In this document: positions 4,259-16,288 of the stretch, piece by piece
How positions within the stretch are numbered: position 1 is the first letter of the stretch
Layout of the letters: each line of letters opens with the position of its first letter
IMG/VR virus record: IMGVR_UViG_3300006919_000625
Location: 1-20,223 of that record
Length of the DNA stretch: 20,223 nt
Origin: a virus
Strand: one strand, 5' to 3'
The notes under the pieces: model-generated
What the model saw: only the letters and a program-made list of their open reading frames with translations
Told to the model about the DNA's origin: nothing
Database searches by the model: none
Translations under genes and position numbers: made by a program

Positions 4259-4713
4259 CTAGAGCTGTGAAGCGCAGGGTCAAAAGGAAATCTAAACCCA
4301 AGACCAAGACCTCGGCTCAGTTAAAGCAAGAGTGCTACAAAGCTGTACAAAAATTAGCCAGATTGGCAGCATCGGACGACAACGGATACTGTTCCTGTGT
4401 GTCCTGCGGAGTGACTAAGCATTACAAAGATATGCAAGGCGGTCATTTCATCCCGAAAGGCAACTCTTCTTACTGGGCGTTAGAGATAGAAAACGTCCAC
4501 CCTCAGTGTCCTGCGTGTAATATGTGGGGCATGCGACACGGTTCAGCTGCGCAGGAATACACCCTGTTCATGGAGGATATGTACGGTCGCCCCTTCGTGG
4601 AGGAGATGATCGCGAAGAAGTCCACCCCTGTGAAGAGGTACAAGGCAGACTACGAGGAGCTTCTTGCGGAGTTCCAAAAGCTAATTGACCACCACGAGAA
4701 GAGGATATGCTAG
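4255..4713 (+). CDS. ninG: NinG (Rap)-like recombination nuclease
   Basis: The 152-aa protein has a basic N-terminus (residues 1-20) followed by the NinG zinc/HNH-like core. The core comprises CSCVSCG (Cys48, Cys51), MQGGHFIPKG (His64), ENVHPQCPACN (Asn80, His82, Cys85, Cys88) and GSAAQEYTLFM. Lambda NinG/Rap is a structure-specific nuclease acting on branched recombination intermediates such as Holliday junctions and D-loops. That fits the annealing protein and exonuclease upstream. The ATG at 4255 (ATGA overlap) is preferred to TTG 4249. Length is somewhat under lambda NinG (about 200 aa), mostly through a shorter C-terminus. Confidence 0.85.
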   Translation: MTRAVKRRVKRKSKPKTKTSAQLKQECYKAVQKLARLAASDDNGYCSCVSCGVTKHYKDMQGGHFIPKGNSSYWALEIENVHPQCPACNMWGMRHGSAAQEYTLFMEDMYGRPFVEEMIAKKSTPVKRYKADYEELLAEFQKLIDHHEKRIC

Positions 4714-5285
4714 GGGCTGTCACTTTTACAAAAGAACATCTAAAAAAAATGAGGTCTTGCCGAGGCGGGTTTTGCAAAGCTCAAATTGATTTGTGTAGGA
4801 AAATAATAAAAGAATTAACTGGCAGTGATAAAGGAAAGCCATCCAAGCTTGTTGGGTTAAAGATAGACCAAAGCATGATTAATCTTTTGATTAACACCAG
4901 AAACCAAAGTCTTCAGGGTTACGCTCCTAAAAAAACAAGAAAAAAACAGAGGAGGCATAGGTCATTCAATAAACCTCAAAGCACTCAAGAAGCAGAAAGA
5001 TCGAAATTAAAATCGCAAGCCATACCAAGTCAGCTATTCTATAAATCGCGACAGTGGAGGGAGTTAAGAGTTTCTGTTCTTGAAGAGTATGAATGTAAAT
5101 GTATGATGTGTGGTTGTAGCCCAAAGGAACACGGGATTGTAGTTCATGTAGACCACATAAAACCAAGAAGCACTCACCCTCATTTAGAGCTAAAAAAAGA
5201 TAATCTTCAAATTTTGTGCGAAGATTGCAACCTTGGTAAGTCTAATTATTACATCACCGATTGGCGGCCTTTCAAATGCTCGTAA
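4707..5285 (+). CDS. HNH endonuclease with an N-terminal phage module
   Basis: The 192-aa protein ends in an HNH domain: EYECKCMMCGCSP (Cys132, Cys135), VVHVDHIKPRS (Asp149, His150) and NLQILCEDCNLGKS (Cys171, Cys174, Asn175). It should bind zinc and cut DNA. The N-terminal 70 residues (FTKEHLKKMRSCRGGFCKAQ, then PSKLVGLKI) resemble a small stand-alone phage protein of unknown function. A Lys/Arg-rich linker (about 75-100) joins the parts. The gene is more AT-rich than its neighbours (one 60-base sample at 4921-4980 has 21 G+C, 35%), so recent acquisition as a mobile or homing-type endonuclease is plausible. Confidence 0.8.
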   Translation: MLGAVTFTKEHLKKMRSCRGGFCKAQIDLCRKIIKELTGSDKGKPSKLVGLKIDQSMINLLINTRNQSLQGYAPKKTRKKQRRHRSFNKPQSTQEAERSKLKSQAIPSQLFYKSRQWRELRVSVLEEYECKCMMCGCSPKEHGIVVHVDHIKPRSTHPHLELKKDNLQILCEDCNLGKSNYYITDWRPFKCS

Positions 5286-5773: not shown

Positions 5774-5993
5774 CGAGCTAGTATTTGTCTTTCAGATGAT
5801 GAGTCTTGACGAGCTAGACGACTGGGTTAATGAGTTCGTCACTGAGTCAGAAGGCAGGGATAGGAATGCTATCTGTACTATGACCTTCGCGATGGAGTCC
5901 ATGTATTCCTTCATCGCAGACAGCGAAGAAAGAATGAACGAGTACAAGATGTTTAAGTCACAGTTTAACCCCGAGCAGGAGTTGTTACATTGA
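5766..5993 (+). CDS. Hypothetical acidic protein, 75 aa
   Basis: The ATG overlaps the preceding stop by 8 bp. The protein is strongly acidic and helical (SLDELDDWVNEFVTESEGRD) with several Met and Phe residues. The acidity may hint at DNA mimicry or at binding a basic partner, but no known anti-restriction family is recognised. Its stop overlaps the TTG start of the DUF3310 gene. Confidence 0.6.
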   Translation: MDDELVFVFQMMSLDELDDWVNEFVTESEGRDRNAICTMTFAMESMYSFIADSEERMNEYKMFKSQFNPEQELLH

Positions 5994-6241
5994 AGTCTAC
6001 CGATTACCAAGTGGCAGGCGACCACTACAAGAAGCTAAAGATTCAACCAGTAGAGTACATCCTGGCTAACAATCTAGGGTTCTGCGAAGGGGCTATCGTG
6101 AAGTACATCTCTCGATGGAGAGACAAGGGGGGAGTCGAGGACTTGCGGAAGATTAAGCAGTTCTGTGAGTTCTTGATTGAAGAGGAGTTAAAGAACAAGC
6201 CCCTCCCCACGATGGAGGAGAGGCGTTTGCCGAGGGGTTAA
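5990..6241 (+). CDS. DUF3310 protein (possible nucleotide kinase-like phage protein)
   Basis: The 83-aa product carries the DUF3310 signature: YQVAGDHYKKLKIQPVEYIL (about residues 6-25), then GFCEGAIVKYISRWRDKGG (about 30-48), then EDLRKIKQFCEFLIE. The family is common in phages and is sometimes annotated as a nucleotide kinase, without good proof. The start is TTG at 5990, with AGGAG (5977-5981) upstream and a TTGA overlap with the previous stop. It is the last gene of the rightward operon, and its stop directly abuts the stop of the leftward operon. Confidence 0.85.
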   Translation: MKSTDYQVAGDHYKKLKIQPVEYILANNLGFCEGAIVKYISRWRDKGGVEDLRKIKQFCEFLIEEELKNKPLPTMEERRLPRG

Positions 6242-8695
6242 TTATTGCTGTTGAGATTTCCACGCAGCTTCAATAACGTTAAAATATTCTCCGCTTGCTT
6301 TCTTGAAGTTTTCCAATTCTCCTTTAGCTGCAAGCTGTCTGTAAAGAGCAGCCTTGGCTGAAGGAGTTCCTGTTCTAGCAATTCTCATTTTTTCTGATAG
6401 ATCAAGTTTAGCAGCGTCTTGCCTTGCGCTTTCTATCTGGGCAGATCGTGATACAGCCGAAGTTGCAGGCTCAATTTTTTGCAGTCCCTGAGCAATAGAT
6501 TTTTGCGCTTGAGTTTGACCTGCAAGTATTAACTGTCCAGTTTCACTTCCTAAAAATCTTCCAAGCGGAGCTAAAGAGGCTAGACTTATAATTCCTCCTA
6601 TTCCTCCTCCTGTAAAAAATCCTCCTGCTGCCGCCATAGACGCATATAAATAAGCAGGTCTTCCTTCTTTCGGGCTAACAGAAGGCATCAAGTCCTTAAC
6701 TTTTTTAAGTTGATCTAAGTCTTTTGTTAATTTCACCTGTACGTCATTATACTCTTGAACAACGTCATCCATTCCGCTTAACTGTGCTTGTGTTTGTTTT
6801 TTTGCTAAAGCCTTTGCCTCTCCCTCTAGCACCCCTACAGCAGAAGCTATTTTTGCTTTTTGCAATCTAGCCGATGATTCTGCTGCTTTTTGTGTCAAAG
6901 ATTTTACTTTTGAGGAGTAATCATTTAACTCGTTAGCTTCTTTATATAATACTCCTTTTCCTGCCGCAAATTGTCTAGTTCCAAGATTTTTGCTTAAAGA
7001 TGAAAGCCATTCTTTTGCGCTAAACGCTCCTTTCGCACCTGACCTAGAGGCAGCAGATACAGCATCCCTTAAGGAAACAAAGTGCTTATAATTTTTTATA
7101 TCTGAGTCAAATTTTATTCTGTCTGACGGATTTAATTTAGCACGAACAGTCTCATTTACTTGATCTAAAATTTTTCTGTTTACTAAAGAGATGCCAGCTT
7201 GTCTTGGATTCTCGAATGAAACTGATTTTGAGCTAATTTTATTACGCAAAGATAAAATATCTTCTCCAGAAATCCAACCCTGCTTATTAGTATTTCTTTC
7301 TAAAAAAGAACCTATCGCAGTATCTACGTCTTTTTTACTTAGCCCGTAAAGATCAAACGCATCATCAAGCTCTTTTGCAACTTTGGCTTGCATCTGATCA
7401 ATAAATTGAGTTTTATTAATTTGAAAACTTTTTCTATTTACTACTTCAAATCCTTTAGAAGTCCAGTTATCAGAAAGCTCAGAAAAAGCCTCATTTACAT
7501 TTTTCTTACTAAGAATAGATGCTTCAGTTTTTTTACTAATAGAAGAAGGCAAAGATAAAGTAAAGGCTTTTTTACGGAACTCATTCTCAGCACTTATAAC
7601 AGATTGATTAAGTTTTTGAGTTCTTGCCGTTAAAGCCACATTTCTTCTATCTATTATTTTTGCCTCGGCATTTGCAGTAGCTTCTTTTACTCCCTTTAAT
7701 TGCAAATCTTCATTTTTTTTCAAAAGAGCAGTAGAAAAATCTTCTTGATTCTTTAAATACTTAGTCATGCCAGATGTTTCTTTTATAAGATTCATTCTTG
7801 CCTGACCTTCTGCTACTTTTGTTTCAAATGGAGCTGCATATTTTTTGTTTTGCTGAGCTATCAATCCTCTTGCTACAGGAAGGTCTTTTACTATTCCTTT
7901 GTATATATTCTCTAAAGCCTTTCCGTCTTCTGACATTGAAAGACCTCTAAACCCTTCTTCTGTTCTTAGTTGTCTGGATACTCTTTGGTCTGAAGCAGCT
8001 CTTACTGCTTTACCAAGTCCTTTTAGCGCAACTCCTGTTGTCACTGAACTTATCATCCCGTCAATAGCAGACTGCCCTAGGTCTGCCCCTTGTTGAGAAT
8101 AACCAACTCCTGATAAAGCTCCAATAGCAGCCATTTCAGCGACAGGAGCTATAGGTGAAGAAAGAGCCGCTCCTCTTGATAAAACAGAAGAAACAGAAGC
8201 AGGAACTCCAGAGGCGACCTGAGATATTGCTTTTGTTGCTGTAGGAGCAGCAGAAGCGGCTCTTGACGCTAATGTAGTAGCGCCTCTCGCAATAGCTCCT
8301 CCAAATGGAGTTACGGCAAGACCTCCTGCTAAATTTAAAGCTAAAGAAGCTTCTGGAAATTTTTCTTGGTAAGCATTTCTTTCAGCCTCCATTTCCATGA
8401 CTGTATTTTCATATAGAGAAGAATAGCTTTCAGTAGACCCTGTTGCCAATTTTGTTGCTGCGCTTACTGCCGAAGCTATTTCGTCAGAAAACCCAAAAGT
8501 AACGCCATCTAAAAACATCATGGCAGCCATCGTTGGGTCATCATACCAAGACTCATCTGACAAAACCGATCCGCTTAACAAAGCATTCATGCCTTCTGGT
8601 ACATATTGCTTGCGAGTTTCTTGTTGCTCGGTTGTGCCTCGAAGAATTGCTAACGTATCTCCAGTGGCATAAGTTTTTTTACTTTGCTCAGCCAT
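6242..8695 (-). CDS. Putative internal virion/DNA-ejection protein, 817 aa
   Basis: This is the last gene of the late operon. The N-terminal part has TFGFSDEIASAVSAAT followed by a helix with ERNAYQEKFPEASLALNLAG. I associate this pattern (FGF-DE, then EKFP-x-SL-x-LxG) with ejection or internal core proteins of podovirus-like phages. Long Lys/Ala/Glu-rich helical segments fill the middle. Two glycine-rich hydrophobic stretches (about residues 120-150 and 682-717) could insert into membranes. Such proteins leave the particle and form a channel across the cell envelope. The gene is very AT-rich (16 G+C in the 60 bases 7681-7740). Its ribosome binding site is weak. Confidence 0.65.
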   Translation of the reverse strand: MAEQSKKTYATGDTLAILRGTTEQQETRKQYVPEGMNALLSGSVLSDESWYDDPTMAAMMFLDGVTFGFSDEIASAVSAATKLATGSTESYSSLYENTVMEMEAERNAYQEKFPEASLALNLAGGLAVTPFGGAIARGATTLASRAASAAPTATKAISQVASGVPASVSSVLSRGAALSSPIAPVAEMAAIGALSGVGYSQQGADLGQSAIDGMISSVTTGVALKGLGKAVRAASDQRVSRQLRTEEGFRGLSMSEDGKALENIYKGIVKDLPVARGLIAQQNKKYAAPFETKVAEGQARMNLIKETSGMTKYLKNQEDFSTALLKKNEDLQLKGVKEATANAEAKIIDRRNVALTARTQKLNQSVISAENEFRKKAFTLSLPSSISKKTEASILSKKNVNEAFSELSDNWTSKGFEVVNRKSFQINKTQFIDQMQAKVAKELDDAFDLYGLSKKDVDTAIGSFLERNTNKQGWISGEDILSLRNKISSKSVSFENPRQAGISLVNRKILDQVNETVRAKLNPSDRIKFDSDIKNYKHFVSLRDAVSAASRSGAKGAFSAKEWLSSLSKNLGTRQFAAGKGVLYKEANELNDYSSKVKSLTQKAAESSARLQKAKIASAVGVLEGEAKALAKKQTQAQLSGMDDVVQEYNDVQVKLTKDLDQLKKVKDLMPSVSPKEGRPAYLYASMAAAGGFFTGGGIGGIISLASLAPLGRFLGSETGQLILAGQTQAQKSIAQGLQKIEPATSAVSRSAQIESARQDAAKLDLSEKMRIARTGTPSAKAALYRQLAAKGELENFKKASGEYFNVIEAAWKSQQQ

Positions 8696-8709
8696 AACTT
8701 TGCACCGCT

Positions 8710-10245
8710 TTAATTAATAGATTCAATTTTCAATTCAGTAATAGGCTCTTCAGTATACCAATTCTCTTGCCCGTCTTGACTTATTTCTCTGAAGTATATT
8801 CTTCCATTTAATACTTTAACATCTTGGTATGTTGATAAGTTAGTGTTAAGTCTAACTGGTAGATTTGATTCAGCCCCAAGCTCTATTGCTAAGAAGTTTG
8901 TATAATGATTTTCAATCTTTTGCAAAGCATCTAAAATCAATTCAGGGTCTTGTAAATTATTCAAAGAAGCTACTGTTGATTTCAGTAATGCCAATTCTCT
9001 ATCTGATACGTTGCCTAAAGCGCCGCCTGTTTTTGATCTTCTTCTCATTAACTCTAGCCTATCAAAAGCCAAATTTGCTTCTAAAGGCTCAATAACGGCG
9101 TTAAGATTTCTTTGAGGTTGCAAAAACAAAGCTTCAACAGGAGCAGAGCCAAGAGATTTGATAAGCTCTGGCACTTGCCCTGCAGCTCTTGAGCTATTTT
9201 CTAGTATATCTCTAGCCTTATAAATTGCAGATATGTTGTTTTCATATTTAGAAAGAGCAGAAAGCCCTTCTTCATAAGGAACAGCCCCATAAGTTTTTCT
9301 TGTTGCGCTTGTTTGAGGTTCAGGCGTAGCCTGTTGAGGCTGCAATATTGCAGGAGGCTCTGCATTTGGATCAATTTCGCCTTGCTCGCTTATAGTGCCT
9401 TGACCTGCAATTGTAGAAGAAACAGTCTGCCCTGAAATTAATCTTGGCAAATCACTAGCAGCAACATTAATAGCTACTGGATTGTTTGGGTCAGCCGTTA
9501 ATCCGACTACTCTTTGAACTCCGTTAGCATCTGTAGTTTGTATCCAATTTTGAATTCTTAAATCTTCAACAGGCTCAGTTTCACCAGTTGAAGTGTTTAA
9601 AATTCTTCCTCCATTTACAACAGACCACCTAGTCTGATTATTTCTTTCATTTTGAGCAAGAGCGTTCATTACTTGTTCTGCTGACAATTGCCTTCTTAAG
9701 AACATATTTCCAAGAAGAGGGTCTTTTTCCATAATTGCTCTAGCAGTTGTTTCTGCTCCTGCATTAGCTAAAGCCCTATCAGCAGCATTTTGTGTTAAAG
9801 CTTCTGTTTGAAGCTTTGCTTGTTCTAATTGTTGAGTTTGCAAGTCTCGTGACAGCTTTCTATCTTCAGCTTCTTTTGTTTTCTGAGCCGCAGCTTGACG
9901 CAGAGCAGCAGCGCGAACAGGATCAATAGACTGCAAAGCCTGGGCAGCTTGTAACAAGCTATCAGGATTCTCAGGGTCTAAGTCCTTAAGTTGTTCTGCC
10001 ATCTTCTCCCCAGTAGTCCGAGGATCAATGCCAATCATAGGCTGCACTGCCCTGCGGAGGTCTTCCTGACGCTGTACGCCAAGCTGACCTGCTACCTGAG
10101 CAAGAGGGGCTAACGCTGCTGCACGACCGCGAAGACCTGATGACAAGAGCTGACCTTGTACCATGCCCTGTTGGAGTAGTTTTTGTTGACGCTGTTCAGG
10201 AGTATCAATGATGTCCGCGAACAGGCTTTGAATGTTTATAGCCAT
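8710..10245 (-). CDS. Putative internal virion/DNA-ejection protein, 511 aa
   Basis: The N-terminal third is Gln/Ala-rich and helical (QRQQKLLQQGMVQGQLL, AAALRQAAAQKTKEAEDRKL), typical of ejection or core proteins that unfold for passage through the tail. The middle has a beta-rich insert (about residues 205-255), a Pro/Gln linker follows, and a mixed C-terminal domain ends the protein. The start overlaps the upstream stop (TAATG) with GGAGG 9-10 bases away. Base composition changes sharply inside the gene near 9890: the first ~115 codons resemble the upstream structural genes, and the remainder resembles the AT-rich 817-aa gene. Confidence 0.6.
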   Translation of the reverse strand: MAINIQSLFADIIDTPEQRQQKLLQQGMVQGQLLSSGLRGRAAALAPLAQVAGQLGVQRQEDLRRAVQPMIGIDPRTTGEKMAEQLKDLDPENPDSLLQAAQALQSIDPVRAAALRQAAAQKTKEAEDRKLSRDLQTQQLEQAKLQTEALTQNAADRALANAGAETTARAIMEKDPLLGNMFLRRQLSAEQVMNALAQNERNNQTRWSVVNGGRILNTSTGETEPVEDLRIQNWIQTTDANGVQRVVGLTADPNNPVAINVAASDLPRLISGQTVSSTIAGQGTISEQGEIDPNAEPPAILQPQQATPEPQTSATRKTYGAVPYEEGLSALSKYENNISAIYKARDILENSSRAAGQVPELIKSLGSAPVEALFLQPQRNLNAVIEPLEANLAFDRLELMRRRSKTGGALGNVSDRELALLKSTVASLNNLQDPELILDALQKIENHYTNFLAIELGAESNLPVRLNTNLSTYQDVKVLNGRIYFREISQDGQENWYTEEPITELKIESIN

Positions 10246-11369
10246 TAGCTAGAGCCTCCACCTGTGTTAACCCAATTAAAAAAGTCATTCCATGTAGTTA
10301 CATCACCGGAAGGACTGGCGTTTTGTGCTGCTGTGCGATTACCCAAACTAGTTGCCGCTGTCGCAGCGTCAGTAATAAACGATAAAGGATTGTTGCTTCC
10401 CGAGGAGTTTTGTTGTCCTGTTTGCTCGCCCTTCAACAAATCAAACAGACCTTGGAACTGCTGCTGACGTAGAGCGTTGGCTAGCGCTGCGTAACCTAGC
10501 TGAGACTCTAGCGTAGACTCTGCAAGCTGAGTACCAAGACCTAGACCTGAAGACTGTAGCGCAGAGGCTATTCTTGAGGCTTCTAGCTGTGGCTCTAATG
10601 TCGCGAGTAGTTGTTGTTGTGGAGCGTAACCTGTTGGGATAGCTGACAGACCTAGCTCGCCAAGGAGTCCTAGTCTTGCTCGTGTCTCACCCAAACCCTG
10701 TAGAGTCTGCTGTGATTGTAGAGCCTGCTCCTGACGAGCCTGCTCCATAGCACTAACACCAAGACCTGCTTGCTGTTCTGCTATAGCCTTTTCTAAGGCC
10801 AACTGCTCAGGCGTACCGCCAAACATGGCAGTCCTAACCCCTAACCTACCCTGGCCTGCTAAACGCTCTTCTAGCCCTAACCTTGCACGTTCCTGCTCGG
10901 GTGTAAGAGTAGCCTGTAGGCGACCGAATATCTCCTGCTCGCGAGCAGCTCGTTGAGAAGGGTCTTGAGTCAGCATACCTATGACATTGGCTTGCTCCTC
11001 AGCTCTTGCCGCAGGGTCGCCCAACATGCCAAAGGCTTGAGTGCCAAAGCCTAAGAGGTTTTCCTGTAGCTTCTGCTCAGTAGGGCTAAGGGCTGTGCCT
11101 AAGCCTCTTTCACTCATGGTAGCTCTAGCCCCTGTAGGTGTAGTTACCGTGAAAGGCTTGAACTCAGACTGACGCTGTATCTCGCCTAAGATGCCGCCTT
11201 CATACTGAGGAACGGTAGGCTGACCAAAGACCGCAGCGACATCCCTTTCACCGAGCTTCTCGATGTCAGAGATAATCTTCTGTTGCGCGGCTGCACCGCC
11301 AATACCCGCTAAAAGATTCCCTGTTGAACTTCCGGGAATGCCTTTTAGATACTCCATTAATTCTTCCAT
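10245..11369 (-). CDS. Putative ejection/internal virion protein, 374 aa
   Basis: The protein is rich in Gln, Ala, Leu and Gly, with long helices (PEQERARLGLEERLAGQGRL, MEQARQEQALQSQQTLQGLG). It begins with a Gly-rich amphipathic segment (GNLLAGIGGAAAQQ) and ends with a Ser/Asn/Gly-rich tail. This makeup is usual for podovirus ejection proteins encoded directly after the tail-tube genes, but there is no catalytic motif and no transglycosylase Glu signature. The gene is linked to both neighbours by TAATG overlaps, and GGAGG precedes its ATG. It forms a three-gene block with the next two genes. Confidence 0.6.
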   Translation of the reverse strand: MEELMEYLKGIPGSSTGNLLAGIGGAAAQQKIISDIEKLGERDVAAVFGQPTVPQYEGGILGEIQRQSEFKPFTVTTPTGARATMSERGLGTALSPTEQKLQENLLGFGTQAFGMLGDPAARAEEQANVIGMLTQDPSQRAAREQEIFGRLQATLTPEQERARLGLEERLAGQGRLGVRTAMFGGTPEQLALEKAIAEQQAGLGVSAMEQARQEQALQSQQTLQGLGETRARLGLLGELGLSAIPTGYAPQQQLLATLEPQLEASRIASALQSSGLGLGTQLAESTLESQLGYAALANALRQQQFQGLFDLLKGEQTGQQNSSGSNNPLSFITDAATAATSLGNRTAAQNASPSGDVTTWNDFFNWVNTGGGSS

Positions 11370-11602
11370 TAGTAAGTACCTCCATCAATCGTGTCGAACG
11401 TAGACGTACCACTAACAACTAGGTTAGCCGCTGTTACTGTTCCTGTGAATGTTGGCGAAGCCGTGTCACTCTTAGTCGCTACGGCTACTGCGATTGCGTC
11501 AAATTCAGCTCCGACTTCAGAGCCTTTAACAACCTTGGCAGGGTTGCCGCTAACCAAAGCGTCCTTGGCTGCGAAGTTAGTAAGTTTGGTATAGTTAGAC
11601 AT
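11369..11602 (-). CDS. Small fibre-like structural protein, 77 aa
   Basis: The N-terminal half (FAAKDALVSGNPAKVVKGSE then VGAEFDAIAVAVATK) resembles the virion-anchoring start of tail fibres in T7-like and related phages. The SPTFTGTVTAANLVVSGT segment is the usual beta repeat of fibre shafts. The protein stops after one repeat, so it may be a mini-fibre, a tail-nozzle plug or a remnant of a longer fibre. It lies between the tail-tube gene and the ejection proteins, with TAATG junctions on both sides and an AAGGA ribosome binding site. Confidence 0.6.
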   Translation of the reverse strand: MSNYTKLTNFAAKDALVSGNPAKVVKGSEVGAEFDAIAVAVATKSDTASPTFTGTVTAANLVVSGTSTFDTIDGGTY

Positions 11603-13125
11603 TAGACTATCCTTCCCATCAGAGCTTGAATATCAATTTCCTGCAAGGCAATAGGGTTGCCTTCCACTGTGGTTTCAACACCTACCGAGACAACTGTTCC
11701 TTGCCCCGAAGCGTTGATCTTCTTGCGTTTAATCAATGCAATAGACGATGAATACTCAGCGTCTGTGTTGAATTCTGAGATGTTGTACTGAGCAACATTA
11801 GACTGAGGCAGTACATAGGCTTGCTTCCTGTAGTTACCTGAGAAGTCATACGCCCAATTGAGTACGACCGTGGCCTCAGCACCATCAAAGGTAGTGAGGT
11901 TAATCTTCTTTAAGAACTTTAGGCTTGACGTACTACCAAAGCTCAAGGGGTGACTGAAGTAACTTAGCTGATAGCTTGTACTGTTATCTTCGTACCCTGT
12001 GTACTCACCAATCCCATCTGCTACCCCGAGGTATAGCTCCTCAGAAGAAGTCTCCGCGAAGCAAAGAGGGTTGATATGCGACCAAGTAGTCGCCCTGAAA
12101 CTCCCATCCTGTAGGGGGAAACGTGTGTCAAAGGCATAGACCACACCTAATATTGGGAAGTTTAGTAACACAAACGCCTGTCGTGGCGAGTAGTGCATAC
12201 TGATATTCCCTGTCTCTGCCGCGAAGAGAGACTTAATATCATTGTTGACGTTCTTTGAGATGTCTCCAATAGGGGCTGACTTCTCTTGAATTGTCCTTGA
12301 CAAACTACGAACACCTGAGTCGTCTAGGAATATCAGGTCTTTACCCGTGGATACTAATGCGTCCCTACCTACACAGCCTACGTTAGAGATTGTATCAGAT
12401 AACGTCATACTAGCAGGGGAGTCAGCGCCCTCGTAGACAAGGATGGAGTTCCTGCCAAAGATGATCAGAAAGCCGTTATGAGCCGCCAGGGCTGTGATAA
12501 CGTCATACCCTGTAGGCCATACGTTAGTTACGTCTATCGAGCCTGACGAGCCTCCTGACCACGCTGTGCCGTCTAGCAGGTCAGACCAATAGATCGTAGA
12601 CTTGTCATCGTCAAAGTCTGCCACCCACATACGACCAAACGCAGCGATAGCTACATGCCCCTCGGGAGGAGTGCCTGTAGCGTGGGAGTGTGTAGACATT
12701 GGCACAACTACGCCCGTGTGGTCTGCATACACCAAAGGCTCATAGCCGCGTTGGAAGAAGTACATATGGTCGTTGAAGTTGACCATCTTCCAATTACTCT
12801 CTGTGATTGCGTAAGACGCAGGAGTCTCATCTACCATTGTGGTAGTGCCTGAGAATATCTTGTTGTTACCTGCTGAGAAGAAAGTCACATCCCCATCAGC
12901 AGCAACAAACTCGCCCATAGATTCTACGCCGTCAGACGAGCCAAGAAGATCGTTACCATTCAGGAGTTCATACCCCTTCCTTGCGGCAATACGACCTTCC
13001 TTGTCAATCACACAGTTATCCGCGACAGCAGAGAAACTTGCGTCCTGTGCTAACGGGGCATCTTGAGTGTTAATACCCGCAAAGCCCGGAGCGGTAATGG
13101 TGATACTTTGGAGTTGTTGTGCCAT
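11602..13125 (-). CDS. Tail tubular protein B/stabilisation-like tail protein, 507 aa
   Basis: The N-terminus (FAGINTQDAPLAQDASFSAV, then DNCVIDKEGRIAARKGYELL) is the characteristic opening of podovirus tail-nozzle or P22 gp10-like stabilisation proteins, followed by many beta strands suggesting a propeller body. Motifs such as HMYFFQRGYEPLVY, RMWVADFDDDKSTIYWSDL and HNGFLIIFGRNSILVY fit that fold. The product should form the distal tail tube under the adaptor encoded just upstream. The ATG directly follows the adaptor's stop codon, with GGTGG upstream. There are no membrane segments and no enzymatic motif. Confidence 0.75.
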   Translation of the reverse strand: MAQQLQSITITAPGFAGINTQDAPLAQDASFSAVADNCVIDKEGRIAARKGYELLNGNDLLGSSDGVESMGEFVAADGDVTFFSAGNNKIFSGTTTMVDETPASYAITESNWKMVNFNDHMYFFQRGYEPLVYADHTGVVVPMSTHSHATGTPPEGHVAIAAFGRMWVADFDDDKSTIYWSDLLDGTAWSGGSSGSIDVTNVWPTGYDVITALAAHNGFLIIFGRNSILVYEGADSPASMTLSDTISNVGCVGRDALVSTGKDLIFLDDSGVRSLSRTIQEKSAPIGDISKNVNNDIKSLFAAETGNISMHYSPRQAFVLLNFPILGVVYAFDTRFPLQDGSFRATTWSHINPLCFAETSSEELYLGVADGIGEYTGYEDNSTSYQLSYFSHPLSFGSTSSLKFLKKINLTTFDGAEATVVLNWAYDFSGNYRKQAYVLPQSNVAQYNISEFNTDAEYSSSIALIKRKKINASGQGTVVSVGVETTVEGNPIALQEIDIQALMGRIV

Positions 13126-13773
13126 CTATACCACCATAAATGTAGTTTCATCAGGGAAGCGGTTAGCGTCCATCGCAATAGCATCTGACAAAGCGGTAGA
13201 GGCTACAGCAAATTGCTCTGCTGCTGACTGACCGCCTGTCTCTCCTCTTTCCCGTAGAGCCATAGCGTAGGCCATCTGAACCACAGGGTTGTAGGGGACT
13301 TTGATCTTAGTAGAGTCTTCAGTAATAACACCCTGCCCTTTCGCAAGGTCAAACCGAAGGTTGTATATACCGTCAGGCTGAGGGTAGACCTTAACCTTGA
13401 GGTCGTCATTATCATCTACACCTGAGACGTAGTAACACACAGGAGTCCCCGAGGTGACATCTTGGTTGTAGTAGACGTTGTTAAAGAAAGCCGTAGTTTG
13501 TAAATCCATAAACCTGTTGGCTGTGTCATTGACTACGCCTTTAATCACACACTCCTGACCTGAGCCTGTGATGGAATACTCTGACGTCCCCGAGACTGTA
13601 GGGATAACCGTAGTCTCTCGAAGAGCAGCCCAATTCCATGAGTTTTCTACCGTCCTCTTCGCGTCATTTAAGAAGTCTCCAATCAATGCGGAGTAGTCAG
13701 ACTCTAGCGCGGTAGAGGCTTGGTCTTCACGCAATCTTCGTAGGACGTTATTGATTGCTTCAAGATATGTCAT
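13126..13773 (-). CDS. Head-tail adaptor/tail tubular protein A-like, 215 aa
   Basis: The protein begins MTYLEAINNVLRRLRE, followed by DYSALIGDFLNDAKRTVENS and WNWAALR. This is the helical N-terminus of tail tubular protein A (gp4/gp11-type adaptor) proteins, which form the dodecameric ring under the portal. A beta domain with VYPQPDGIYNLRFDLAKG and C-terminal helices (AMALRERGETGGQSAAEQFA) completes it. I chose ATG 13773, preceded by AGGAGG at 13779-13784, over the upstream ATG 13806, which lacks a good site. It overlaps the previous gene by 14 bp and is followed at once by the tail-tube-B-like gene, the standard order. Confidence 0.75.
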   Translation of the reverse strand: MTYLEAINNVLRRLREDQASTALESDYSALIGDFLNDAKRTVENSWNWAALRETTVIPTVSGTSEYSITGSGQECVIKGVVNDTANRFMDLQTTAFFNNVYYNQDVTSGTPVCYYVSGVDDNDDLKVKVYPQPDGIYNLRFDLAKGQGVITEDSTKIKVPYNPVVQMAYAMALRERGETGGQSAAEQFAVASTALSDAIAMDANRFPDETTFMVV

Positions 13774-14866
13774 TGTTGCCTCCTGCGGCTGAAAGGAACT
13801 GACCAAACATTCCTTGCTGTACGTTTTCCAACTTAGTAAATTGTGTTGGGAATAAGATAGATTCTGTAATCGGCGCTTCGTTCAAGATGTTTTGAATCAA
13901 AGTAACGCTAGGCTTCTTGGGTAACTCAGGAAGTATGGTTGGCGTAATCGGCTCAGGAGTAACCGGAGTATCTAAGATAACCGTTTCATCACCAACTACA
14001 GTTTCATCATCATCTGATATGACAGTTGCATCACCTCCGTTTGCAACCTCTCCGCCTGTAACCTCTCCGGCTGTAACCTCTCCGTTTGTTACTTCTCCGT
14101 TTGTTACTTCTCCGCCTGTATCACCTAAGCCTTGATTTTCAATAGCAGTGCCTGACTCCGCAGCGGCTTGATTGATAGACTCAACCGTATTTCCTGTTGC
14201 GATAGCTACATCTCCTACTGACATACCTCGATCATTGACTACATCCACAACATTTTTAATTGCGTCACGGTTGTATACGCCAAAGATGTCTAAGGCTTTC
14301 TCAAGGATAACGTCAAAGTCTGCGCCCTTATCTACTTTTTCCCACTCTGATTCCATAGCAGCTTTTGCAATTGCGGCCGCGTCTTTATCTACAGGAACTA
14401 CAGAAGGGTCAAGCATGTCTACTTGCGTTAAATCGTTTTCTAAGCCTGTAGAAAAGTCTTCAGTCTCTTGAGATTCTAAAAAGTCAGACAGCTCTTCGCG
14501 GATGTTTTGTTCTGTATCCGGGTCAAGCCCTGTAAGAGTATTGTATTGCTGCTGTATCTCCTCGGCAGGAATACCTGTTTGTTCAGCAACTTGATCTACA
14601 GTAACAAGCCCTTGGTCTAGCAAACCTTTAACATAGTCTGTCTCAAACCGATTAATTCCATCTGCAACATTAACGGGTTGCAAAGCGCCTTGTACCGAAA
14701 AAGGCACAACGCTAGGGACACCTTGATCTTCAATAGCAGAAATAATACGATCAGTGTACTGTTCGTTTTCAAGCATACCAAGCTCAGGGCTTGCGCCTTT
14801 TTGAGCAAGCCCACCAAGAAAGCCGCCTAGACCTCCAAAATCCTGTCGAAATACATTGTCACCCAT
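13760..14866 (-). CDS. Acidic repeat-containing virion-associated protein, 368 aa
   Basis: The protein opens with a glycine-rich segment (FGGLGGFLGGLAQKG) like an ejection or internal protein. It continues with acidic helices (PDTEQNIREELSDFLESQET) and then a low-complexity region of five GEVT(N/A/G)-type pentapeptides. A DDDE stretch and a Pro/Thr linker (VTPEPITPTILPELPKKP) follow, before a short C-terminal domain. No enzyme motif is seen. It lies just before the adaptor gene in the structural run, so a virion or assembly role is likely. The acidic linkers suggest a flexible, extended protein, but I do not recognise the family. The start overlaps the upstream stop (TAATG). Confidence 0.6.
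   Translation of the reverse strand: MGDNVFRQDFGGLGGFLGGLAQKGASPELGMLENEQYTDRIISAIEDQGVPSVVPFSVQGALQPVNVADGINRFETDYVKGLLDQGLVTVDQVAEQTGIPAEEIQQQYNTLTGLDPDTEQNIREELSDFLESQETEDFSTGLENDLTQVDMLDPSVVPVDKDAAAIAKAAMESEWEKVDKGADFDVILEKALDIFGVYNRDAIKNVVDVVNDRGMSVGDVAIATGNTVESINQAAAESGTAIENQGLGDTGGEVTNGEVTNGEVTAGEVTGGEVANGGDATVISDDDETVVGDETVILDTPVTPEPITPTILPELPKKPSVTLIQNILNEAPITESILFPTQFTKLENVQQGMFGQFLSAAGGNNDIS
13779..13784 (-). promoter_or_regulatory. Ribosome binding site fixing the adaptor start
   Basis: On the minus strand AGGAGG lies 5 bases before the ATG at 13773. It favours that start over the in-frame ATG eleven codons upstream at 13806. Confidence 0.7.
14035..14124 (-). repeat. Six tandem 15-bp units encoding a pentapeptide repeat
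   Basis: On the + strand the unit is CTCCGNNTGNNACNT, starting at 14035, 14050, 14065, 14080, 14095 and 14110. Units 4 and 5 are identical and the last is degenerate. Read on the minus strand it encodes Gly-Glu-Val-Thr/Ala plus a variable residue. The unit length is in frame, so copy number can change without a frameshift. Confidence 0.9.
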
Positions 14867-15108
14867 TACACAATACCTTTATCAAAGTTTGTGGGTTTAG
14901 CGCCTGAACGCATTGCTGCTGCTACACCTGAGGAAACATAAAGACCGTTGCCTGTAATGCCGCCCGACCAACCATTTTTACCAAAAAGAAAACTACAAAC
15001 TTTGTCTCGAATATCTACAGGCAATTTGTTTAGCATCCAAGCCTGATCTTTTTGAGAGGCGCTATAAAATCTTTTAAGTTCTAATTTAAGATTTTCAGCA
15101 TTAACCAT
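14866..15108 (-). CDS. Hypothetical protein, 80 aa
   Basis: The gene is bounded by TAATG overlaps at both ends. The N-terminal half is helical and charged (LKLELKRFYSASQKDQAWML). The C-terminal half is glycine-rich (GKNGWSGGITGNGLYVSSGV) and could be a flexible virion-associated tail. There is no signal peptide, and the single cysteine is not in a motif. The family is not recognised. A structural accessory role is inferred only from its position next to the 368-aa protein. Confidence 0.55.
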   Translation of the reverse strand: MVNAENLKLELKRFYSASQKDQAWMLNKLPVDIRDKVCSFLFGKNGWSGGITGNGLYVSSGVAAAMRSGAKPTNFDKGIV

Positions 15109-15287: not shown

Positions 15288-15496
15288 GGGCATACATCCG
15301 GTAAAAGTATTCCTGTTGTTGTAAAGATTACTGTTCTGCCTGCTTTGCGAATATGAGTCACAGGAGCGGTACAATAAATCTTAAAGTCTTCAACCAACCC
15401 CTTAGTGATGTCACCACAATCATACCCGTCTGAGAGGTTGTCGGTGATGGCGCAGCTCGGCAATACTAAGGTGCATATCATTAACCATCTTTTCAT
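15284..15496 (-). CDS. Small putative lipoprotein (o-spanin-like candidate), 70 aa
   Basis: From ATG 15496 the product starts MKRWLMICTLVLPSCAITDN, a positively charged start, a hydrophobic core and a lipobox-like LPSC with Cys15 as the lipidation site. The Pro at -2 is not ideal. The mature part is about 55 residues with further cysteines and no second membrane segment. The gene overlaps the last 77 bp of the lipase gene in another frame, and its own stop overlaps the next ATG, which supports real translation. Rz1-type outer-membrane spanins are similarly small and overlapping, but they usually carry proline-rich mature regions, which are not obvious here. Confidence 0.55.
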   Translation of the reverse strand: MKRWLMICTLVLPSCAITDNLSDGYDCGDITKGLVEDFKIYCTAPVTHIRKAGRTVIFTTTGILLPDVCP

Positions 15497-16112
15497 ACCC
15501 ACCCATCGAATGATCTGAGATTGCATCGCCTAGTCCAAAGTCATTGCTGACGTAACCCTTAGGGGGATTGAAGAACACCTGCCCCCAATTATCAAAGTAT
15601 ACTAAGTCTTGGTTTGCGTCAGGCTTGTATCCGATTTTAGGGATACGACTCACAACATCACTGCCTGAGACGTAAGACACCTGTACATCGTGGTTCATTT
15701 GCTTCTTAGAGCCGCGAAGGAAAACCCGTGGCTTGCCAAAGGTAATCATTGTAAGGTCTGTGAAGTCCCTACAAGCCCACGCTGACAGCTCAGCTAACGC
15801 CCCGCCAAGAGAGTGTCCGGTAATAACAGTCTTCTTGTGAGGAGTTAGTAAACGCCTGATTCTTTTCCACACCGACTTGTGTGCCATAGCGAACCCACCG
15901 TGAGTCCACCGTCTGTTGTAGTACGCAGGGAAAGCTGACAGGTTAAACAGCCAATCCCCTAAAGAGTTAGTTCCGCGAAAGACAACGTAGTCGCACTCAG
16001 GCGTAGATTTAACATACGCCACAGTAGAGGTTAGCTTATTCTCTATCTTGATAGCGCCAACCATGTCATCTTTGTAAGCGTCTAGTGACAGCTTTGCGGC
16101 AACCTTTTGCAT
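15420..16112 (-). CDS. Class-3 lipase-type alpha/beta hydrolase
   Basis: The 230-aa protein has FRGTNSLGDWL (residues 45-55, oxyanion region), VITGHSLGGALAEL (96-109, nucleophile Ser101), VSGSDVVSRIP (148-158, likely catalytic Asp152) and ISDHSMGGYEKM (198-209, likely catalytic His201). This is the complete triad in the order and spacing of Lipase_3 enzymes, which cleave acyl esters of glycerolipids. There is no signal peptide, so release would depend on a holin or cell breakage. It lies between two small lipoprotein genes and downstream of a holin-like gene, suggesting a lysis or membrane-damage role. The start at 16112 (TAATG overlap) is preferred over 16124. Confidence 0.85.
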   Translation of the reverse strand: MQKVAAKLSLDAYKDDMVGAIKIENKLTSTVAYVKSTPECDYVVFRGTNSLGDWLFNLSAFPAYYNRRWTHGGFAMAHKSVWKRIRRLLTPHKKTVITGHSLGGALAELSAWACRDFTDLTMITFGKPRVFLRGSKKQMNHDVQVSYVSGSDVVSRIPKIGYKPDANQDLVYFDNWGQVFFNPPKGYVSNDFGLGDAISDHSMGGYEKMVNDMHLSIAELRHHRQPLRRV

Positions 16113-16288
16113 TACTCTACACACTCGATCTGAATAGTGTTAGGTGCGACTACATCTGCAATGGCTTCGCGGTTAGCTAGTCGTTGAGTGGGTGACAGCT
16201 CGCAGTATTTCTCCACTGCGCCGCCAACCATATCTAGTGACGAGCAAGACGCGAGGAACATAACGGGTACGATCAGTAGCTTTTTCAT
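16112..16288 (-). CDS. Small outer-membrane-type lipoprotein (o-spanin candidate), 58 aa
   Basis: From ATG 16288, with GGAG upstream, the protein reads MKKLLIVPVMFLASCSS. This is a classic lipoprotein signal with lipobox LASC and Cys15 as the lipidated residue. Ser at mature position +2 favours outer-membrane sorting under the +2 rule. The mature chain is about 44 residues with two further cysteines. Size, signal and position after a holin-like gene match Rz1-like outer-membrane spanins, although no embedding i-spanin gene is present in another frame. A phage-encoded envelope lipoprotein with another job (for example superinfection exclusion) is the alternative. Confidence 0.65.
   Translation of the reverse strand: MKKLLIVPVMFLASCSSLDMVGGAVEKYCELSPTQRLANREAIADVVAPNTIQIECVE

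Follow-up and report, generated by a model that had tools for sequence, protein, structure and literature searches.

The sharp change in base composition inside the 511-aa gene of this phage is, with a probability that we put at about 0.87, a recombination joint at which an exchangeable cassette of ejection proteins begins, in a short-tailed phage of an uncultured type. The window, that is the whole stretch of DNA that was analysed, is a complete virus record of 20,223 bases. Its structural block lies on the minus strand and codes, in this order, for an adaptor-like protein of 226 aa and for proteins of 507, 77, 374, 511, and 817 aa, and it meets the plus-strand genes head-on at 6241/6242 where the stop codons abut. 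As judged from alignments, the segment from about 9885 to 6245 differs as a block from the nearest backbones, L088 and L004, and in related viruses the same block is replaced between nearly the same edges with its two genes inherited together. The overall arrangement is a constant core, a swappable tail, a constant anchor, a swappable cassette, and a constant flank, and the features that make it up are as follows.

13126-13806, minus strand: 226-aa adaptor, backbone; Pfam SU10_adaptor, E 2.3e-12.
11602-13125, minus strand: 507-aa tail/connector protein, backbone; weak annotated matches, 92% amino acid identity in L088, L004, and L020.
10423-11369, minus strand: conserved core of the 374-aa protein, residues 1 to about 316, a probable first ejection protein; 96-97% amino acid identity in L004 and L088, alignment of 45 sequences.
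10247-10422, minus strand: exchangeable C-terminal tail of the 374-aa protein, second swap module; a gap in DNA similarity in relatives, 16 tail types in 52 loci.
9889-10245, minus strand: constant N-terminal block of the 511-aa protein, residues 1 to about 119, common to the backbone relatives; 88-93% by blastn to L088, L004, and L005.
9880-9893: 5' joint of the exchanged cassette, where DNA similarity to L088, L004, L005, L036, and L023 ends.
8710-9888, minus strand: variable distal part of the 511-aa protein with AT-rich third codon positions (GC3 0.21 for 8710-9840); 13 distal families among 54 sequences.
6242-8695, minus strand: 817-aa protein, second gene of the cassette and probable partner ejection protein; GC3 0.22, co-assorts with the distal family.
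6240-6247: 3' joint, which closes the cassette where the 817-aa gene and the convergent 83-aa gene meet stop codon to stop codon; DNA similarity resumes here and contig L002 spans it.
5990-6241, plus strand: 83-aa DUF3310 gene (Pfam PF11753), conserved right flank; 99, 99, and 98% amino acid identity in L088, L004, and L020.

In P22 the genes follow the order adaptor, DNA stabilization, small needle-like gene, and ejection genes. Comparison of the window with such a P22-like set showed the same order, namely, the SU10_adaptor protein, the stabilization-like 507-aa protein, and then the proteins of 77, 374, 511, and 817 aa. It is likely, on sequence grounds, that the 374-, 511-, and 817-aa proteins have an ejection role. 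The 507-aa protein has weak matches (23-32%) that are annotated as DNA stabilization, tail, or structural proteins and that lie in phages of Microcystis, Roseobacter, and Pelagibacter and in one unassigned record. Pseudanabaena phage Pan3 has an adaptor, a stabilization gene, a needle gene, and three ejection-labelled genes in that order, plus two extra small genes. Because it is the third ejection gene of Pan3, and not the second, that matches residues 379-448 of the 511-aa protein, the correspondence with Pan3 is not gene by gene. PHROG 917, described as 'released from the phage upon host infection', was matched by the distal parts of L012, L061, and L067 (3 of the 39 relatives scanned), and these matches start at residues 95-120; the 511-aa protein of the window matches phrog_24864, a family of no assigned function. 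Pfam gave nothing above the cut-off for the 817-, 511-, 374-, and 507-aa proteins; ten next-gene proteins from other cassettes had no Pfam match at E 0.01 either, and PHROGs placed three of the ten in tape-measure-like or unknown families and seven in none. When the alignments of the 817-, 511-, and 374-aa proteins were searched against profiles of solved structures, the matches were at chance level, with best E values of 0.09, 0.1, and 0.25, and no ejection protein was among them. The 374- and 817-aa proteins had no match at all in cultured phages. Only the near-identical L002 was found in a single-sequence search with the 817-aa protein, and an alignment search was needed for its other relatives. 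A profile scan of genome contigs with the 374 alignment found no relative and hence no host link. The structure models were poor, with a mean pLDDT of 51.3 for the 511-aa protein (6 sequences) and 50.8 for the 374-aa protein (45 sequences). An alignment of 39 homologues of the 511-aa protein is conserved to about residue 116, and the joint would lie near the start of a long helix (residues 109-174) that is predicted with moderate confidence.

The original prediction contrasted 36 G+C in the 60 bases at 10081-10140 with 16 at 7681-7740, and our recount gave the same numbers; both of these 60-mers are extremes, a count of 36 or more being reached by 1.7% of 60-mers and one of 16 or fewer by 1.2%. 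A change-point test with 200 permutations was applied to the third codon positions between 14866 and 6244 in the minus-strand genes. The main break in GC3 was at 9930 with a 2-log-likelihood interval of 9840-9969 and an LLR of 78 that was reached by none of the permutations, and across it GC3 goes from 0.442 to 0.221 in the direction of the genes. The composition switch had been placed near 9890 within one open frame, and 9890 falls inside this interval. When the 511-aa gene was tested alone the break was again at 9930 (9834-9969), with GC3 going from 0.448 to 0.216 (LLR 10.7, 0 of 200 permutations). Downstream of 9930, as far as 6244, the test found no second significant GC3 break; there is a second significant break far upstream at 13954, where GC3 goes from 0.306 to 0.473 (0 of 200 permutations). 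The arginine codons follow the same line. In the 507-, 374-, and 511-aa genes down to 9889 there are 25 CGN, 5 AGA, and 12 AGG codons, and downstream of 9889 there are 7, 45, and 7, respectively (CGN vs AGA, upstream vs downstream, Fisher p 3e-10). The claim of CGN upstream and AGA below is borne out in both halves, and the 12 AGG codons upstream had gone unmentioned in it.

The relatives used for comparison were viral contigs matched by the 511- and 817-aa proteins and, for the 374-aa protein, by the best 80 of 108 matches. Among the matches listed, the closest backbones are L088 (the same contig as L009), L004, and L020, whose 374-aa proteins are 97, 96, and 82% identical to that of the window and whose 507-aa proteins are 92% identical in each case. 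The distal part of the 511-aa protein and the 817-aa gene have no detectable match in L088 or L020; in L004, whose cassette is of the window's own family, they are 31 and 33% identical. On either side of the cassette the flanks are 88-94% identical in DNA to L088 and L004. A drop in similarity had been expected at about 9.9 kb, and DNA similarity indeed ends at 9893 in L088 and 9880 in L004, as it does at 9890 in L005, 9880 in L036, and 9884 in L023; in other relatives it ends at 9859 (L054), 9973 (L012), and 10000 (L020). It resumes at 6247 in L088, 6246 in L004, 6243 in L036, 6240 in L020 and L012, and 6225 in L054. Inside the cassette there are two short matches to L004 and one to L054, at 70-78%. 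Similarity to the same relatives stops abruptly at the joint and returns beyond the module and, because it ends and resumes at the cassette edges, residues 120 or so to 511 and the 817-aa gene (about 3.64 kb) behave as one exchanged block. L001, which carries the cassette most similar to that of the window (59-61%), aligns over the whole stretch, with 64.9% DNA identity over 5977-10201, and its protein identity dips to 0.38-0.47 at residues 121-200.

Placed as a single break, the 5' edge is likeliest at 9992-10010 against L088, L005, L033, and L020 and at 9884 against L023; against the first four it is two-stepped. A survey of joints was done with 138 pairs that have N-termini at least 85% identical over the first 200 aligned columns and belong to different distal families. 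The breaks were at nt 200-260 of the 511-aa gene in 115 of these pairs and at nt 280-400 in the other 23, and since they cluster in this way there are two preferred joint zones. The break of the window with its nearest backbone, L004, falls in the second zone.

Separate phylogenies, which had been suggested along with the original prediction, were found to conflict. They were built under LG+G4, without a mixture model, for 13 viruses with both parts; the backbone was represented by the 374 core and residues 1-110 of the 511-aa protein (L093 with a partial 374) and the cassette by the 817 homologues. The backbone tree pairs the window with L004 (94/100) and L054 with L065 (100/100), and the cassette tree pairs the window with L054 (100/100) and L004 with L065 (100/99). 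In the AU test the backbone data rejected the window with L054 (p 2e-5) and L004 with L065 (p 3e-5), and the cassette data rejected the window with L004 (p 3e-78); these p values are guides, as some branches are long and the clades were chosen after the pairwise identities had been seen. For the window/L004 and L054/L065 pairs alike, identity is 92-98% over the backbone proteins and 33-36% over the cassette.

A usable 511 homologue was present in at least 88 entries (the window included and a few contigs counted twice), of which 76 were complete and 300 aa or longer; after sequences with 95% identity over 90% of the length had been collapsed, 54 remained, the window among them. Single linkage at E 1e-5 with half coverage divided their distal parts into 13 families. 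Distal identity does not follow the identity of the 374-aa gene (rho 0.01, 1326 pairs) or of the 507-aa gene (rho 0.00, 741 pairs); the backbone genes 374 and 507 correlate with each other at 0.745, and the N-terminal block of the 511-aa protein (511N) correlates with the 374-aa gene at 0.55. Co-assortment was examined in the 44 loci that have both a 374 tail and a complete next gene. All 102 pairs that share a distal family also share a next-gene family, when 46 would be expected after shuffling, and there was no exception among all 46 loci with a complete next gene. There are six next-gene families, one of which takes in 30 loci from seven distal families. Since the next-gene families are broader, the relation is nested and not one-to-one. 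Eleven hand-picked pairs were compared for recent transfer. Upstream of the 511 start codon L085 and L049 are 69.8% identical, and over the 6.3 kb that begin there they are 97.6% identical; for L029 and L080 identity rises at this codon from 83.7 to 94.8%. L072 and L044 show 97.1% identity as far as nt 253 of the gene and 94.6% beyond the cassette, with different cassettes in between. A distal identity of 1.00 between L052 and L076 was not accepted as a transfer; the two belong to different distal families, their next genes are 23% identical, and the value likely reflects a very short overlap in an alignment with free ends. The region has been used for exchange repeatedly and is not the site of a single event, and the variation in it is of module type. 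The recombination joint that had been proposed from composition, with the distal part swapped together with the 817-aa gene, is supported beyond composition by the DNA edges, the AU-rejected trees, and the 102 of 102 co-assorting pairs.

An old codon bias specific to the domain or gene, for example one due to low expression of ejection proteins, and inherited vertically with no exchange, is a rival explanation of the step, and a general drop among the relatives speaks for it. GC3 is lower after residue 150 than before residue 115 of the 511 homologue in 52 of 54 sequences, and in 39 of 39 the 507-aa gene exceeds the 511 distal part in GC3, and likewise in fourfold GC. The fourfold GC of the distal part is also below that of 511N in 39 of 54 sequences (median difference 0.035, p 0.005) and below that of the 374-aa gene in 37 of 51 (median 0.048). 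A small general distal drop thus exists and speaks for some old or intrinsic component. However, the drop is small, and the next gene has no general drop, the 374-aa gene being higher in 22 of 43 loci and 511N in 18 of 46. The fourfold step for the whole cassette (511 distal part plus next gene, against 374 core plus 511N) is positive in only 25 of 42 loci with a median of about 0.01, and that of the window, 0.161 (from 0.310 to 0.149), is the largest of the 42. In the related backbones, namely, the window, L088, L004, and L020, the GC3 of the distal part is 0.22, 0.36, 0.26, and 0.35. Uniform similarity across the break combined with the same step, which had been named as the sign of an old feature, was also looked for, and L001, which is similar throughout, lacks the step (GC3 0.36 and 0.36). 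Since the general step is small, the step of the window is the largest, and L001 has none, the bulk of the GC step of the window belongs to its own cassette; the difference in composition across the joint is specific to the module, with the small general drop besides. As similarity also collapses at the joint and the trees conflict, inherited codon bias is a very improbable explanation. With exchange, an AT-rich step would be expected if the cassette came from a more AT-rich donor and had not yet adjusted.

Somewhat less improbable, but still unlikely, is a chimeric assembly, in which two co-occurring strains would have been joined within the conserved 511 start to give the window. Next to the joint there is indeed a stretch with high conservation between strains, a place at which assemblers can switch, and the exact 35 bases over the 5' joint were found in no other viral contig searched, in a search that may omit near records; because of this the 5' joint of the window rests on one record. 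On the other hand, in L001 and L054 the same distal family follows directly on each virus's own N-terminus, a separate contig, L002, spans the 3' joint with 99.98% identity over 5987 bp, and 16 of 17 chosen near-duplicate pairs repeat their arrangement at 99.5% or more across the joint region (1400-1800 bases). These pairs, to which L089/L090 is the exception, are differently numbered metagenome records of which some may share reads. The population-wide pattern, moreover, is independent of the window. It is hardly credible that very strong diversifying selection made the distal region diverge where it stands, with no exchange. Some distal families are probably remote homologues, cross-family alignments sometimes going past residue 300, and L004, with its near backbone, has a cassette of the window's family at 31-33%, all of which such divergence could accommodate. 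It does not fit flanks that are 88-94% identical in DNA beside a cassette that has no match (L088) or about 33% protein identity (L004), nor the 94-98% identity of cassettes whose backbones show only 70-77%. Because the identities of flank and cassette are discordant in both directions, transfer and not drift in place is needed.

We infer the ejection function, the mechanism of exchange, and the selecting force behind the exchanged cassette. Co-infecting phages would exchange it by homologous recombination through two conserved stretches, one at the start of the 511-aa gene and the other in the convergent gene beyond 6241. The N-terminal 120 or so residues would stay since they are fitted to the phage's own virion. 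The exchanged pair would meet the host envelope during DNA entry and would have to match each other, as gp20 and gp16 of P22 do, and variation in the host envelope or superinfection-exclusion systems may keep many cassette types in circulation.

A second swap module, of which the original prediction had made no mention, is present in the gene before the 511-aa gene. The last 58 or so codons of the 374-aa gene (10247-10422) are replaced in L088, L004, L064, and L031; in these relatives the DNA gap runs from 10247/10252 to 10416/10422, the edges agreeing within a few bases, and the 374 cores are 74-97% identical in protein. About 16 tail types were found among 52 loci by single linkage of local alignment scores, and this number is approximate because type 0 joins some tails by their shared first residues. 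Tail type has no association with distal 511 family (8 shared pairs vs 10.6 expected, p 0.865) and is associated with residues 3-8 of the 511-aa protein (33 shared vs 18.8 expected, p 0.0015); the tail thus tends to move together with the beginning of the gene that follows. When the cores of two loci were 90% or more identical in DNA, the tail was the same in 11 of 26 cases (50 loci compared). In the opposite direction, the window and L025 have cores 67% and tails 93% identical, and L036 and L017 have cores 69% and tails 99% identical. L089 and L090 are 86% identical in the 374 core, have tails without a match, and are then 95.4% identical from the 511 start, a pattern that looks like a start-codon exchange. 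Identity at fourfold sites in the 511-aa protein is 0.68 for residues 1-20, 0.66 for 41-60, and 0.61 for 61-80, and 0.42-0.43 for residues 21-40 and 81-120; the maximum in 43 blocks of the 507- and 374-aa genes is 0.61, with sequence sets that differ between genes. The high-identity blocks would fit short near-identical tracts used in exchange, and this is only suggestive. The tail peptide gave only chance matches (E 3 or more) in cultured phages. One tail type (L015, L012, L085, L056, and L086) has an internal duplication of a unit of about 20 residues ending in GIPR. Compared with the window, L064 has 507- and 226-aa proteins that are 99-100% identical and a 374-aa protein that is only 74% identical; judging from L064, the 374 core itself may be exchanged too.

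Mosaic ejection proteins, and two of them needing joint exchange, are already known from P22-like phages. In P22, replacing gp16 or gp20 alone by that of Sf6 abolishes infectivity and replacing both together restores it, while gp7 is replaceable alone (PMC10883804). Genes 16 and 20 are described there as being among the most variable virion genes, and changes in them overcome SieA exclusion (PMC10883804). Exchange of ejected-protein genes across host species has also been reported for these phages (PMC10883804, PMC2629481). The proteins gp7, gp20, and gp16 resemble the set in the window in having a better-conserved first protein and two very variable ones (PMC10883804, PMC2629481). In the window set, too, the second and third proteins are exchanged as a matched pair and the first independently, and the natural exchange pattern matches the gp16/gp20 pairing rule. 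There are differences from P22. The proteins of the window have no direct sequence match to those of P22, and there is no cultured relative. The joint is inside the second protein with its first 120 or so residues kept, and the first protein has its own swappable C-terminal tail; the P22 passages at hand describe neither (PMC10883804, PMC2629481). The intragenic joint, the constant N-terminal anchor, and the tail pool are a variant on known mosaicism. In literature titles and the starts of abstracts we found no swappable tail of a first ejection protein and no such intragenic joint; subscription papers were mostly uncovered and absence is unproven.

Two other systems are similar in part. Tailspikes of the P22 group are described as having a conserved head-binding N-terminus (residues 1-115) and dissimilar C-terminal parts (PMC2629481), and here, too, a constant N-terminus is joined to a variable remainder. 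However, the variability in the window falls in a protein presumed to be internal and injected, and an entire second gene goes with it. In T7 the three proteins gp14, gp15, and gp16 form an envelope-spanning conduit, and the internal virion proteins of T7 are described as undergoing rapid divergence and mosaicism (PMC8954989). The proteins of the window have no sequence match to them, and a Pfam scan of the 374-, 511-, and 817-aa proteins found no peptidoglycan-hydrolase domain.

We also put forward, tentatively and as somewhat short of an even chance, that these phages draw on freely reassorting, interchangeable injection parts from a small common pool, with about 14 cassette types and about 19 independent tails, joined at recurrent exchange points (the 511 start codon, nt 200 to 400 or so of the 511-aa gene, and the last stop codon), and that the combination of parts would match host envelope or exclusion types. 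The numbers 14 and 19 are Chao1 estimates from type counts, in loci found with window-based queries. Tail fibres are the textbook site where phage specificity is swapped. The swap here would act later, at the crossing of the envelope, and with separable units. If the reassorting-parts reading is true, host matching would be by combination, as with tail-fibre serotypes, but at the membrane-crossing step. Should the tails and cassettes turn out to decide which cells a phage can enter, or which resident phages shut it out, a small module catalogue could serve to read, and to test, entry specificity. Natural populations would then, if this is true, show the matched-pair rule known from P22 hybrids. 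Both the intragenic anchor and the independent pool of tails are worth following.

The window has other variable features. A variable island at 13868-15107 takes in all but the last 36 or so codons of a 368-aa gene, and an 80-aa gene. Its edges are at 13867-13905 and 15096-15108 in L088, L020, L064, and L031, and at 13867 and 14726 in L025; its GC3 is low (0.33 and 0.26), and the GC3 change-point at 13954 is close to the island edge (13867-13905 in five relatives). The 368-aa protein has short repeats (GEVTNGEVTNGEVTAGEVTGGEV) at about 14033-14116. At 4707-5285 there is an AT-rich 192-aa gene (GC3 0.35) with an HNH-like motif, recognized by eye, which has no match in L088, L004, and L020 and is present in 3 of 45 loci; it looks like a mobile endonuclease insertion. 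In the minus-strand block, a 234-aa protein (15420-16124) matches a PHROG esterase/lipase family (E 4.5e-22). The 132-aa protein at 3306-3704 matches Pfam Cell Wall Hydrolase (E 8e-24) and is likely, from this match, a lysis enzyme.
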